Of a stretch of DNA of 64,000 bases, positions 54,274 to 59,203 are shown one piece after another (the stretch's first letter is position 1; each line of letters begins with the position of its first letter). The stretch is from positions 930,001-994,000 of the forward strand of contig NZ_FNZG01000001.1 of assembly GCF_900109195.1 (NCBI RefSeq), in the 5' to 3' direction. The position numbers and the translations under genes were made by a program. This DNA is from Pseudooceanicola nitratireducens. Its GTDB lineage: Bacteria; Pseudomonadota; Alphaproteobacteria; Rhodobacterales; Rhodobacteraceae. Below the pieces are notes generated by a model. It made no database searches. It was not told the DNA's origin and saw nothing but the letters and a program-made list of their open reading frames with translations.

Positions 54274-55704
54274 TTAACCGCTCGCGACACGAGGTAGCAC
54301 GTCCTCAGGAGCCTTCCGAACCGACCGCCGGAAATCCGAAATCACGCAGTCGCGTCCGGCAGCCTTTGCCCGGTAAAGCGCCTGATCCGCGCGGGTAAGC
54401 AGGCGCGATGCGTCCTCTTCTGGTGTGCGGAACTGGCGAGCGGCGGGGCAGTCAAGGGTTGCCAGGCCGATCGACATGGTGACCTGCAGCCCGTCCGGCG
54501 CGCCGGGATAGGGCACGCAGGTCCGCGCCACGGCCAGGCGGAGCCGGCGGGCCAAAGCCGAGGCCTCGGCCCGCGCGCACCCGGGTAGCAGGATCAGGAA
54601 CTCCTCTCCTCCGATGCGGGACGCGATCCCAGAGGTGCCGAGGGTGTCGGAAAGACACCGCCCGATGGCCTGAAGGACCGCATCCCCGGCGGGATGTCCG
54701 AAGGTGTCGTTCACCCATTTGAAATGATCGAGATCGCCCATCAGTACGGCAACGGGGGCGTCGCGGGTCCGGCTGTCGCGGATCAGCTGGTCTAGCCGGG
54801 GCAGGGCGTAGCGACGGTTGTAAAGCCCGGTCAAGGGATCGGTCAGCGCGGATTGCAGCCCATGGCGCAGCTGATCCCGGGTCCGCAGCATCGAGCGGCG
54901 GCGGTCGGCCAGCAGGGTCAGGCGCGCCATGGCTTCGTCGGCATGGAAGGGCAGGGTCATGACGCCGCCTGCGCCATAGTCCAGCGCCTCGATCACCATG
55001 GAAGGATCGGTCGAGCCGTGGCCGGAATGCGCCAGAAGCACCTCGGGCCCGGCCTCCTGATCCAGACGGGCCGCGCGGGCAGTCAGCCGAAGCGTCGCGT
55101 CGCGGCCCAGGCTGTCGGCATCAAGCAGGGCCAGATCCACCCCTGGCGGCAGCGCATCCGCAGGGCCCAGCACTTTGACCGCTGGCAGGGGCAGGGCCCG
55201 CGCCCAATCCGCCGCCCGCGCATCGCCCGAGAAGATCGCCACACGCGGCGGCGGGGCAAAGGCCCCGGCCGCCTCGGCCAAGCCGGCGGGGCGGATGCCG
55301 GGAACCTCTTGCATCGTCAGGTCGCTCATGCGGGCGCGATACTCAAATAGCCGCCGGACGCGGGCCAGGATTTCCGCGTCGGAACAGGACCTTGGGATAA
55401 CCTCATCCGCACCGGCCTTGATCAGCATGGCGCAGCGCGTCGCATCCGCGCGGTCAGTCAGGACGATGCGCAAGGCATGGCGGGTCTCATCCCCTCCGCG
55501 CAGGCTGTCGCACAGGGCCAGCGCCCCAAGCCCCGAAATCCCGTCCGAGATCAGCACGGCCCCCGGTTGATCCTCTTGCACGATGGCACCGACATCCTCG
55601 GACCGGTCGGCCTGCATCACGTCATAGAAGGCGCCGCTGAACAGCGCGGACAGCATCAGCCGACTGGCGAACCTGTCATCCGCGATCAATATGCGTCCGG
55701 TCAT
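54274..55704 (-). CDS. PleD-like response-regulator diguanylate cyclase
   Basis: A protein of 476 residues. Receiver 1 (ILIADDRFASRLMLSALF, phosphoacceptor segment AVLISDGISG, and IPRSC where the conserved lysine is replaced) plus a degenerate second receiver-like region (AIFSGDARAADW, ALLDADSLG). The GGDEF domain is clear: DPLTGLYNRRYALPRLDQLI, MGDLDHFKWVNDTFGHPAGD, SRIGGEEFLIL. The RxxD inhibitory site is absent. Makes c-di-GMP. The start at 55704 lies before the receiver. Confidence 0.88.
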   Translation of the reverse strand: MTGRILIADDRFASRLMLSALFSGAFYDVMQADRSEDVGAIVQEDQPGAVLISDGISGLGALALCDSLRGGDETRHALRIVLTDRADATRCAMLIKAGADEVIPRSCSDAEILARVRRLFEYRARMSDLTMQEVPGIRPAGLAEAAGAFAPPPRVAIFSGDARAADWARALPLPAVKVLGPADALPPGVDLALLDADSLGRDATLRLTARAARLDQEAGPEVLLAHSGHGSTDPSMVIEALDYGAGGVMTLPFHADEAMARLTLLADRRRSMLRTRDQLRHGLQSALTDPLTGLYNRRYALPRLDQLIRDSRTRDAPVAVLMGDLDHFKWVNDTFGHPAGDAVLQAIGRCLSDTLGTSGIASRIGGEEFLILLPGCARAEASALARRLRLAVARTCVPYPGAPDGLQVTMSIGLATLDCPAARQFRTPEEDASRLLTRADQALYRAKAAGRDCVISDFRRSVRKAPEDVLPRVASG

Positions 55705-55876
55705 CGCAGCAACCTTTTCTTCACGAATTCCCACGCGCCCGACAGGCCCGCGGCTTGGCTGAAGACAGGATTTGCGAATTTGGTTAAGAAAGCGTTGCCC
55801 GGCCCAGGCGATTCCGACGGTCCCGTCGATTTTCGCGCAGATCTCGGCCGGATTGCCACGCAGAAAAGGAGACCCC

Positions 55877-56155
55877 ATGGACAGCGAACAGGCGCAGATC
55901 ATCGCCCTGGCTTCCCTTAACTGGCTGATCGCGAACGACGATCTGCGGGGGATTTTCCTGGGCTCCAGTGGGTTGTCACCCGAGGACCTGATGGCCCGCG
56001 CGGCCGAGCCCGAACTGCTGGGATCCGTGCTGGATTTCATCCTGATGGACGATTCCTGGGTGGTCTCCTGCTGCGATTCCCTGGGCTATCCCTACGAGAA
56101 CCTGCAACGCGCGCGCATGGCCCTGCCCGGCGGACAGCAGGTGCACTGGACCTGA
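55877..56155 (+). CDS. DUF3572 protein
   Basis: A protein of 92 residues: IALASLNWLIANDDLRGIFLGSSGLSPEDLMARAAEPELLGSVLDFILMDDSWVVSCCDSLGYPYENLQRARMALPGG matches the DUF3572 family of alphaproteobacteria. AAAAGGAG precedes the start. Divergent from the PleD-like gene. Function unknown; the family is highly conserved in Rhodobacterales. Confidence 0.85.
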   Translation: MDSEQAQIIALASLNWLIANDDLRGIFLGSSGLSPEDLMARAAEPELLGSVLDFILMDDSWVVSCCDSLGYPYENLQRARMALPGGQQVHWT

Positions 56156-56170
56156 GCGCCGATTAGCCCG

Positions 56171-56641
56171 TCACAGAGCAGACAGATCGGCCGGCGTGCC
56201 TTCGATGATCACATCGAGCAGACGGATCAGTTCGGCGTGTTCGGCGGGGCTGAGAAGGGCGGCCATCAGCTCTCCGTTTTCGCGGGCATGCGGGGTGCCC
56301 TGGGCAACCGCGCGACGGCCCTTTTCGGTCAGCGTGATCCTTCGCGTACGGCGGTCTTCCTCGCCCGAGCTGCGGGCAACCAGCCCGTCGGTCTCCATCC
56401 CGCGCAGCGCGCGTGACGTGGCGGTGCGGTCGATGCCGACGAACACAGCGATATCAGAGGGTTGCGATAGCCCTTCGTTGGCGATGGCCAGCAGGATACA
56501 CCAGGTCGTCCGGTTCAGCCCGATCTGGCGCAGACGATCCTCAAGCCGCCGTTCCTGCAGCCGCGCGGCAAGCGACAGGTGGTAGCCAAGCGAGGAATGC
56601 AGGCGATAGGGCGGGGGCGTGGTGTCTTGCGTGTCGGACAT
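56171..56641 (-). CDS. MarR-family transcriptional regulator
   Basis: A protein of 156 residues. Winged helix: WCILLAIANEGLSQPSDIAVFVGIDRTATSRALRGMETDGLVARSSGEEDRRTRRITLTEKGRRAV. The DRRTRRI wing and dimer helices are canonical. Convergent with DUF3572 (15-base gap) and divergent from the HAD phosphatase gene. Target unknown. Confidence 0.9.
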   Translation of the reverse strand: MSDTQDTTPPPYRLHSSLGYHLSLAARLQERRLEDRLRQIGLNRTTWCILLAIANEGLSQPSDIAVFVGIDRTATSRALRGMETDGLVARSSGEEDRRTRRITLTEKGRRAVAQGTPHARENGELMAALLSPAEHAELIRLLDVIIEGTPADLSAL

Positions 56642-56779
56642 GGACCGAGAGGGCCGCAGCGAAACCCGCTTGTCAAGCCGATCCTGCCCGCGCAGTGTCC
56701 CCGCAAGGCGGCACCGGCCCTGGCACCGGCCCTGGCACTGGGCCTGTGCTGCGAGAGCGACTGCGACAGGAAAGACGTG

Positions 56780-57478
56780 ATGATCATCAAGGGGATATTG
56801 TTCGACAAGGACGGGACGCTGTTCGATTATGGGGCCACCTGGAACGGCTGGGCGTTGCAGCTGATCTCGGATCTTGCGGCTGGTGATGTCACTCTGGGCC
56901 GTCGCCTGGCCGAAGCCGCAGATTTCGACCTGGCATCCGGCGCATTTCGCCCGACCAGCCCCATGATCGCCTGCACCAATCGCGAGGCCGCAGAGATCCT
57001 TCTGCCATACCTCCCCGACACTGACCTGGCCACGTTGGAAGAGCTTCTGACCCTGCGCGCCACCGAGGCTCCGCTGGCCCCGCCCGTCGACCTGCATCCG
57101 CTGCTGGATGACCTGGGCGGTCGCGGCCTGTCGCTAGGCGTCATGACGAATGACAGCGAACAGGCCGCGCTGGTGCATCTGCAAGAGGCCAAGATACTGG
57201 ACCGGTTCGATTTTGTCGCAGGGTTCGACAGCGGCTACGGGGCCAAGCCCGCGCCGACCCCGCTGCTGGCCTTTGCTTCTCAGCTTGGACTGGATCCGGC
57301 GCATGTGGCCATGGTCGGCGACAGCACCCATGATCTGATCGCGGGCCGCGCCGCCGGCATGGTGACGGTTGCGGTCCTGACCGGCTTGGCCGATGCCGAA
57401 ACGCTTGGCCCCCATGCCGATGTTGTGCTGCCGCATATCGGCCATATCCCGGGCTGGCTTGCGGGTATTTCGGCATAG
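56780..57478 (+). CDS. HAD-family hydrolase, phosphoglycolate phosphatase-like
   Basis: A protein of 232 residues. Motif I is GILFDKDGTLFDYGATW, motif II SLGVMTNDS, motif III GAKPAPTPLLAF and motif IV AMVGDSTHDLIAGRAAGM. A helical cap follows motif I. The product is a cytoplasmic phosphatase; the exact substrate is unproven (Gph-like). Confidence 0.88.
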   Translation: MIIKGILFDKDGTLFDYGATWNGWALQLISDLAAGDVTLGRRLAEAADFDLASGAFRPTSPMIACTNREAAEILLPYLPDTDLATLEELLTLRATEAPLAPPVDLHPLLDDLGGRGLSLGVMTNDSEQAALVHLQEAKILDRFDFVAGFDSGYGAKPAPTPLLAFASQLGLDPAHVAMVGDSTHDLIAGRAAGMVTVAVLTGLADAETLGPHADVVLPHIGHIPGWLAGISA

Positions 57479-57557: not shown

Positions 57558-58154
57558 ATGCATGGGCTGATGAACAGGGCGATACAATGTTTTGTGCGGG
57601 ACACCTACGGGGGCGAGGTCTGGGAACAGGTCGTGCGCCGCGCCGGGCTGGGGTTTTCCGACTTTGCCGCGATGCTGACCTATGATGACCCGCTGACAGA
57701 CGCGGTGCTGGACGCGATCTGTGCCTGCCTGTCGAAACCCCGTGCGACGGTGCTGGAGGATATCGGCACCTATCTAGTCTCGGACCCGCAAATTCAGGCC
57801 CCCCGGCGGCTGCTGCGCTTTGCCGGCATCAGTTACGAGGATTTCCTGCAATCCCTGGACGATCTGCCGGGGCGGGCGCAGCTGGCCGTCTCGGACCTGG
57901 TCCTGCCACGGTTGGAACTTCGGGTTCTACCGGCCGGGCGCTATATCCTTGTGGTCGACAGCGGCGGCGGCACGCCGGCGGGGTTCGGGCATGTCATGGT
58001 CGGCATCCTGCGCGCCATGGCCGACGATTACGGGGCGCTGGTCATGCTGGATCATCGCGGCACCCGCCAGGGCCGGGAAGAGATCGAGATCACGCTGGTC
58101 GAAGCCGCCTTTGCCGAAGGGCGCGCCTTTGACCTTGGGGCCCGTATGTCATGA
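57558..58154 (+). CDS. H-NOX (HNOB)-like protein lacking the heme-binding motifs
   Basis: A protein of 198 residues. The fold is recognisable (MHGLMNRAIQCFVRDTYGGEVWEQVVRRAG, LLRFAGISYEDFLQSLDDL, and a C-terminal AFAEGRAFDL). Aligned on FLQSLDDL with FLQNLDALH of soluble guanylate cyclase beta1, the proximal heme-ligand histidine (His105) falls on Pro104. The YxSxR propionate-binding motif falls on VDSGGG. The only histidines are at 2, 145 and 166. If aligned correctly it cannot bind heme in the usual way. It overlaps the diguanylate cyclase gene by 4 bases, as in known H-NOX/DGC pairs. ATG 57552 is an alternative start. Confidence 0.8.
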   Translation: MHGLMNRAIQCFVRDTYGGEVWEQVVRRAGLGFSDFAAMLTYDDPLTDAVLDAICACLSKPRATVLEDIGTYLVSDPQIQAPRRLLRFAGISYEDFLQSLDDLPGRAQLAVSDLVLPRLELRVLPAGRYILVVDSGGGTPAGFGHVMVGILRAMADDYGALVMLDHRGTRQGREEIEITLVEAAFAEGRAFDLGARMS

Positions 58155-59203
58155 GCGGGGCCAATCACAGGCCCACGGACCTGCCCGAAGACAGCATGCT
58201 TCTGGCGCTTGATACCCTGTGCCCGATGCACTGCCTGGTCGACGAAAGCGGCAACATCACCCATTGCGGCCCGACCCTGCAAAAGCTGCGGCCACAGGTG
58301 ACGATGGTTGGTCAGCGCTTCCTGAAGGTGTTTCAGACCACCCATCCGGGCAATATCACCACCCTGCCGGATCTGTGCAATGCGGCGGGGCGGCGGGCCC
58401 GGCTTCGGCTGCGGTTTCGGTCCGCCCCGCGCACGGATCTGCAAGGTGTCCTGGTGCCGCACGGGCTGGGCGGGGCGATCATCAACCTGTCCTTCGGGAT
58501 CTCGATCCTGGATGCCGTGCGGGACTATGCCCTGACCAATACCGATTTCGCCGCCACCGACCCCACGGTCGAGATGCTGTTCCTGGTCGAGGCGAAATCC
58601 GCCGCGATGGAGGCATCGCGCAAGCTGACCCGCCAGCTGCACATCGCCAAGATTGCCGCAGAAGAACAGGCCTTTACCGACACTTTGACCGGGTTGAAGA
58701 ACCGCCGCGCGCTGGACCACATCTTGAACCGTATGATCGAGGCCGAGCAGGAGTTCGCGCTGATGCACATGGACCTCGATTACTTCAAGGATGTGAACGA
58801 CAGCCTGGGCCATGCCGCCGGGGATCATGTTCTGACCCAGGTCGCGCAGATCATGGTCGAGGAAACGCGCAACGAAGACGTGGTCGCCCGTGTCGGAGGA
58901 GACGAGTTCGTGCTTGTGTTCCACGGTCTCTGCTCTCGCCCCCGGATCGAGGAAATCGCCCGCCGCCTGATCACGCGGGTCGAGGTGCCCATGCCCTGGC
59001 AGGATCAGACCTGTCGCATCTCGGCCTCGCTTGGGACGACGCTGTCCACGGACTACGCCCATGTCCAGGCCGAGACGCTTCTGGCCGACGCCGATGCCGC
59101 GCTATACGCCGCAAAGCGGGCAGGGCGCGCGCAACACCGGTTCCACGACCCGCCCCCCGCCGGAGCCCTGGCCGCCGGGGTCGGCCCTGCGACAGGGTCC
59201 TGA
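58151..59203 (+). CDS. Diguanylate cyclase with HNOBA-like N-terminus
   Basis: A protein of 350 residues. Residues 20-160 resemble the HNOBA (H-NOX-associated) domain: LCPMHCLVDESGNITHCGPTLQKLRP, LQGVLVPHGLGGAIINLSFGISILDAVRDYALTNTDF. A short coiled coil follows, then GGDEF: DTLTGLKNRRALDHIL, HMDLDYFKDVNDSLGHAAGDHV, RVGGDEFVLVF. RNED five residues before is an RxxD inhibitory site. Its activity is likely regulated by the H-NOX-like partner. Confidence 0.88.
   Translation: MSGANHRPTDLPEDSMLLALDTLCPMHCLVDESGNITHCGPTLQKLRPQVTMVGQRFLKVFQTTHPGNITTLPDLCNAAGRRARLRLRFRSAPRTDLQGVLVPHGLGGAIINLSFGISILDAVRDYALTNTDFAATDPTVEMLFLVEAKSAAMEASRKLTRQLHIAKIAAEEQAFTDTLTGLKNRRALDHILNRMIEAEQEFALMHMDLDYFKDVNDSLGHAAGDHVLTQVAQIMVEETRNEDVVARVGGDEFVLVFHGLCSRPRIEEIARRLITRVEVPMPWQDQTCRISASLGTTLSTDYAHVQAETLLADADAALYAAKRAGRAQHRFHDPPPAGALAAGVGPATGS

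Follow-up and report, generated by a model that had tools for sequence, protein, structure and literature searches.

An H-NOX protein without its proximal heme ligand, paired with a diguanylate cyclase, in Pseudooceanicola nitratireducens and its relatives in the Rhodobacteraceae

What does an H-NOX protein do for a cell when the histidine that should hold its heme is missing? The question is raised by two overlapping genes in a stretch of 64,000 nucleotides from Pseudooceanicola nitratireducens (assembly GCF_900109195.1, contig NZ_FNZG01000001.1, positions 930,001 to 994,000; hereafter the window), where a gene for a histidine-less H-NOX protein runs into a gene for a diguanylate cyclase. The role of such proteins has been posed as a question in print in 2017 and again in 2022, and we found no answer to it in the open-licence literature. 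The answer that we favour, and to which we give roughly an even chance, is that the H-NOX protein is probably made together with its cyclase, binds it and restrains its synthesis of cyclic di-GMP (c-di-GMP), sitting in the state that nitric oxide (NO) would otherwise switch on.

The H-NOX-like gene lies on the forward strand at positions 57558 to 58154 of the window and encodes 198 amino acids starting MHGLMN. Residues 2-160 of its product match the Pfam family HNOB (PF07700) with 65.0 bits against a cut-off of 25.5, and a structure model compared by fold search is predicted to have the H-NOX fold, which bears out the reading of a first-pass annotation made from the DNA letters alone. Among the sequences of solved structures the protein matches entries of the Nostoc H-NOX protein Alr2278 (best E 1.7e-14) and also the beta1 subunit of soluble guanylate cyclase (sGC; best E 1.4e-8), while NCBIfam gave no match at E<=1; it is the product of the one HNOB gene of its genome. 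Both Alr2278 and the H-NOX domain of sGC beta1 have the proximal histidine and YxSxR, the heme propionate motif, and in this respect the window protein is unlike either. The codon CCG at 57867 to 57869 (forward strand) encodes Pro104, which an HMMER alignment and a MAFFT alignment (240 rows plus the Nostoc sequence) both set opposite Nostoc H105, the proximal heme ligand, just as the annotation had proposed. The place of YxSxR falls at residues 132-140 (57951 to 57977, same strand), with a three-residue insertion; the annotation had read VDSGGG there and called the motif missing, and in the MAFFT alignment the tyrosine and arginine are indeed lost (V133 and P140), but one serine remains (S135). 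The only histidines are at 2, 145 and 166, as the annotation counted.

The two genes share the four bases of an ATGA stop/start overlap at 58151 to 58154, and the second, at 58151 to 59203 on the same strand, encodes a cyclase of 350 amino acids laid out as an HNOBA-like alpha/beta domain (about residues 13-126), a helix (138-174) and a GGDEF domain (174-327). The last of these scores 141.2 bits against Pfam GGDEF, and the GGDEF active-site motif, the RxxD inhibitory motif and the GGDEF fold are all present. To call the N-terminal domain HNOBA-like, as had been done, is fair: the HNOBA match of 20.3 bits falls below the Pfam cut-off of 23.4, yet 44 of the 47 aligned partner cyclases of the family match HNOBA at E<=0.01. 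Fold searches with the full-length cyclase were filled by GGDEF chains, with no sGC HNOBA chain among the 50 matches listed for each; the PAS-GGDEF-EAL protein PA0861 aligns over cyclase residues 10-336, but with a root-mean-square deviation of 24.

How common is such a pair? Among 394 Rhodobacteraceae genomes, nearly all of different genera, the window protein found a match in 287 and HNOB in 296, so the protein is not a chance occurrence. A profile search of the collected loci yielded 250 copies, from which one piece shorter than 120 amino acids (L160, which has the histidine), two copies of the window gene and eight identical sequences were dropped; the resulting alignment of 240 rows includes the window protein and divides into 3 canonical H-NOX proteins and 237 family rows. 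The sample is uneven, since it includes the best 30 of the 287 and most full-length weaker matches and leaves out many in the middle, and its named records are the best 80 among the matches listed. Residue 104 is proline in 167 family rows, histidine in 18 (7.6%) and something else in 52, eleven different residues in all standing in for the histidine, which itself occurs in 15 of 164 rows from the sampled genomes and the window and in 3 of 73 from the named records. A GGDEF gene follows in all 18 histidine rows and, the window aside, in 217 of 218 rows without the histidine, the sole exception (L163) being a fragment of 950 bases, too little sequence for one to be visible; the GGDEF motif is intact in 18/18 and 216/217 of them, and an offset of -4 between the genes is the commonest arrangement in both (12/18 and 161/217). 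In a class-level sample, 9 of 289 genomes were matched, 4 of these inside the family; outside it, L288, L290 and L291 align a histidine at position 104 (91, 73 and 43 bits), and the remaining matches are weak (L292 with 18 bits, L293 with 14).

Is the window protein, then, something new? Kumar and Spiro (PMC5588039) describe in Paracoccus denitrificans an H-NOX gene that overlaps a GGDEF gene and whose product lacks the conserved axial histidine, and they note, citing Iyer 2003, that the H-NOX protein of Rhodobacter sphaeroides lacks it too. This HnoX/DgcA pair (Pden_3719/Pden_3720) is orthologous to ours, HnoX being 38.3% identical to the window protein over 97% of the query, and the orthologue that we recovered from strain HAMBI_2443 reads FVESLRELP, with proline at 104 and a GGDEF frame next to it. 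A similarity network seeded with the P. denitrificans protein (PMC8738867) gave a large 'group 5' in which the proximal histidine occurs in less than 10% and is mostly replaced by proline, a figure with which our 7.6% agrees; its authors find no conserved cysteine in the group, ask how these proteins sense anything and suggest other triggers. Homology to HnoX, proline in place of histidine and the adjacent GGDEF gene place the window protein, judged by sequence, among the group 5 H-NOX proteins of the Rhodobacteraceae, an assignment made by orthology to the network seed. It is a new member and not the undescribed variant that the annotation had suspected, because both papers already describe histidine-less H-NOX proteins beside GGDEF genes. 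No biochemical study of a histidine-less family member was found in the open-licence literature, although one may exist all the same; a 2025 paper reports a P. denitrificans hnox deletion without the word histidine in its main text (PMC12582929), and the passages searched in two papers on Rhodobacterales genes (PMC9756655 and PMC9836097) hold nothing on the H-NOX histidine. What we add is the position of Dinoroseobacter shibae in the histidine-keeping minority, the incomplete YxSxR throughout the family, the scatter of the histidine over the tree and the low ratio of nonsynonymous to synonymous substitution rates (dN/dS).

D. shibae DFL 12 supplies the counterpart. Its single HNOB gene (Dshi_2815) belongs to the same family as the window gene and is followed at an offset of -4 by a GGDEF gene; the H-NOX proteins are 45% and the cyclases 49% identical. 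Unlike the window protein, it keeps the histidine at 104 (FVDGLDDLH), and it has C.W.R in the place of YxSxR. It is reported to bind NO and to inhibit the cyclase Dgc1 (PMC8846402 and PMC7232146, citing Bedrunka 2018), so that the sole family member that we found with NO sensing reported from direct assays belongs to the minority with the histidine; PMC7232146 also counts Rhodobacter capsulatus among the organisms with an HNOX NO sensor. Proteins labelled HNOX in the Rhodobacterales should therefore not be called NO sensors on the strength of D. shibae. Nor is the loss of YxSxR, which had been taken as a sign that heme is absent, evidence against heme: the whole motif occurs in 0 of the 237 family rows, the reported heme-based NO sensor of D. 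shibae included. One family thus offers a natural experiment, with an orthologue in D. shibae that keeps the histidine and is reported to be under NO control, a histidine-less one with a mutant phenotype in P. denitrificans, and the same kind of cyclase beside both.

Two lines meet in the reading that we favour. In P. denitrificans an hnoX mutant shows a partial biofilm deficiency, has no BapA and consumes NO more quickly, whereas the dgcAB mutant overproduces biofilm and BapA (PMC5588039), so that losing the histidine-less HnoX and losing both cyclases have opposite effects; in D. shibae, the NO-bound H-NOX inhibits Dgc1. From these we infer that the window protein restrains the adjacent cyclase. 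The two proteins would be produced together, and contact would run between the H-NOX surface and the HNOBA-like domain of the cyclase. In an otherwise intact H-NOX fold, the histidine that would tie the heme iron to the signalling helix is gone, and H-NOX activation by NO is believed to depend on breaking the Fe-His bond (PMC12329717); a protein without that bond may accordingly sit in the NO-on, cyclase-inhibiting state, and control would pass to the expression level of the H-NOX gene or to another ligand. The 'heme-independent sensor' of the annotation is an inference of the same kind. Three points temper the NO-on reading: NO-bound H-NOX of Caulobacter does not inhibit its kinase (PMC12329717), Kumar and Spiro read their P. 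denitrificans data as NO-dependent, and the structure model of the window protein gave no sign of an NO-on or an NO-off state, its Foldseek scores being equal for the two.

The histidine-less protein might instead still bind heme through another residue, the distal His145, His2 or a tyrosine, and so remain a gas or redox sensor, which we consider rather unlikely. Of the two histidines that, if placed at the heme, would by the annotation's own account undo its reading (His145 and His166), His145 falls by sequence alignment opposite Nostoc P143, beside the distal-pocket residue M144, and a distal histidine may therefore serve as the heme ligand of this protein; yet just 42% of the 219 family rows whose proximal histidine is missing have a histidine there. 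His2 is kept in 89% of those rows, and is as common where the proximal histidine is present (16/18). With or without the histidine, rows conserve P117 and, at Nostoc positions 5, 9, 144 and 148, hydrophobic residues about equally well, and YxSxR is dispensable, because the D. shibae protein, which reportedly binds NO, has C.W.R in its place. Against a substitute ligand, no histidine or cysteine column of the MAFFT alignment tracks the loss of the proximal histidine across the 237 family rows, which answers the annotation's call for an orthologue alignment: His166 is found in 54% of the 219 rows, His76 in 64% (Asp in the window protein) and His98 in 58% (Gln), and the variety of residues that replace the histidine also speaks against it. 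The only cysteine column above 30% in these rows is 133 (57%), a valine in the window protein; with no conserved cysteine zinc site, zinc- and cysteine-based redox sensing of the Vibrio cholerae type was rejected.

Equally doubtful is that the former heme pocket now accommodates a different small molecule, a possibility in line with the conserved fold, with purifying selection and with the other triggers suggested in PMC8738867, but one for which no ligand is known. Between close pairs the dN/dS had a median of 0.063 and a maximum of 0.263 (a value was obtained for 41 of the 48 pairs, both members lacking the histidine in 40 of the 41, and the pairs are not independent), from which the gene appears to have been retained for some function independent of the ligand. 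This low dN/dS, together with matches in most sampled genomes and the P. denitrificans hnoX phenotype, leaves a decaying relic without a role as highly improbable, despite a stop inside the match in three genomes (G271, G196 and G176).

Was the histidine lost once, long ago? Its 18 rows are scattered, and at least 14 changes are needed on trees built without column 104, both with all 240 rows and with a 112-row subset. A single ancient loss, with the histidine rows on one side of one branch, was rejected on the 112-row subset by the approximately unbiased test (p-AU 0.00113), for a group of 21 histidine rows of which 3 are the canonical outgroup proteins and which was defined after the first tree had been seen; the backbone of the 112-row tree is poorly resolved, with 47 of 109 inner branches open and a bootstrap that had not settled. 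The direction of change is not settled between repeated loss and repeated regain: parsimony gives 1 loss and 13 gains at equal costs, 15 losses and 4 gains when a gain costs 2, and 32 losses when gains are disallowed. We suggest only tentatively, and think it unlikely on balance, that the module has flipped many times between a histidine-bearing NO sensor and a ligand-free, permanently NO-on form; if it has, one and the same locus would switch with NO in certain genera, while in most of the rest it would act as a fixed brake on c-di-GMP. NnrS is present in 10 of 15 genomes with the histidine and in 24 of 65 others (Fisher p 0.045, the 65 taken in fetch order and not at random), a link to which we give little weight because kinship is uncorrected and the genome of the window has NnrS without the histidine.

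Around the pair, a HAD-family hydrolase gene (56777-57478, forward strand; PF13419, 78.4 bits) lies directly upstream of the H-NOX gene, preceded by a MarR-type regulator (56171-56836, reverse strand; MarR_2, 46.6 bits) and by a frame for another diguanylate cyclase, this one carrying a receiver domain (54274-56040, reverse strand); the genome has five GGDEF matches, two of them inside the window. In Phaeobacter sp. G2 a HAD gene likewise lies near the H-NOX/GGDEF pair, which there sits on a 120-kb plasmid record (L283:2501-4107), and another genome (G246) carries two copies of the family's H-NOX gene. Other H-NOX genes also occur in the Rhodobacteraceae. At L112 and L289 (G294), the frame after a histidine-bearing canonical H-NOX holds GGDEF and EAL-like motifs. 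A separate second type has H[VF]EV at the expected histidine in 27 of the 28 loci L114-L141, the exception being L116, and in most of those 27 a neighbouring frame holds a motif like the H-box of kinases.
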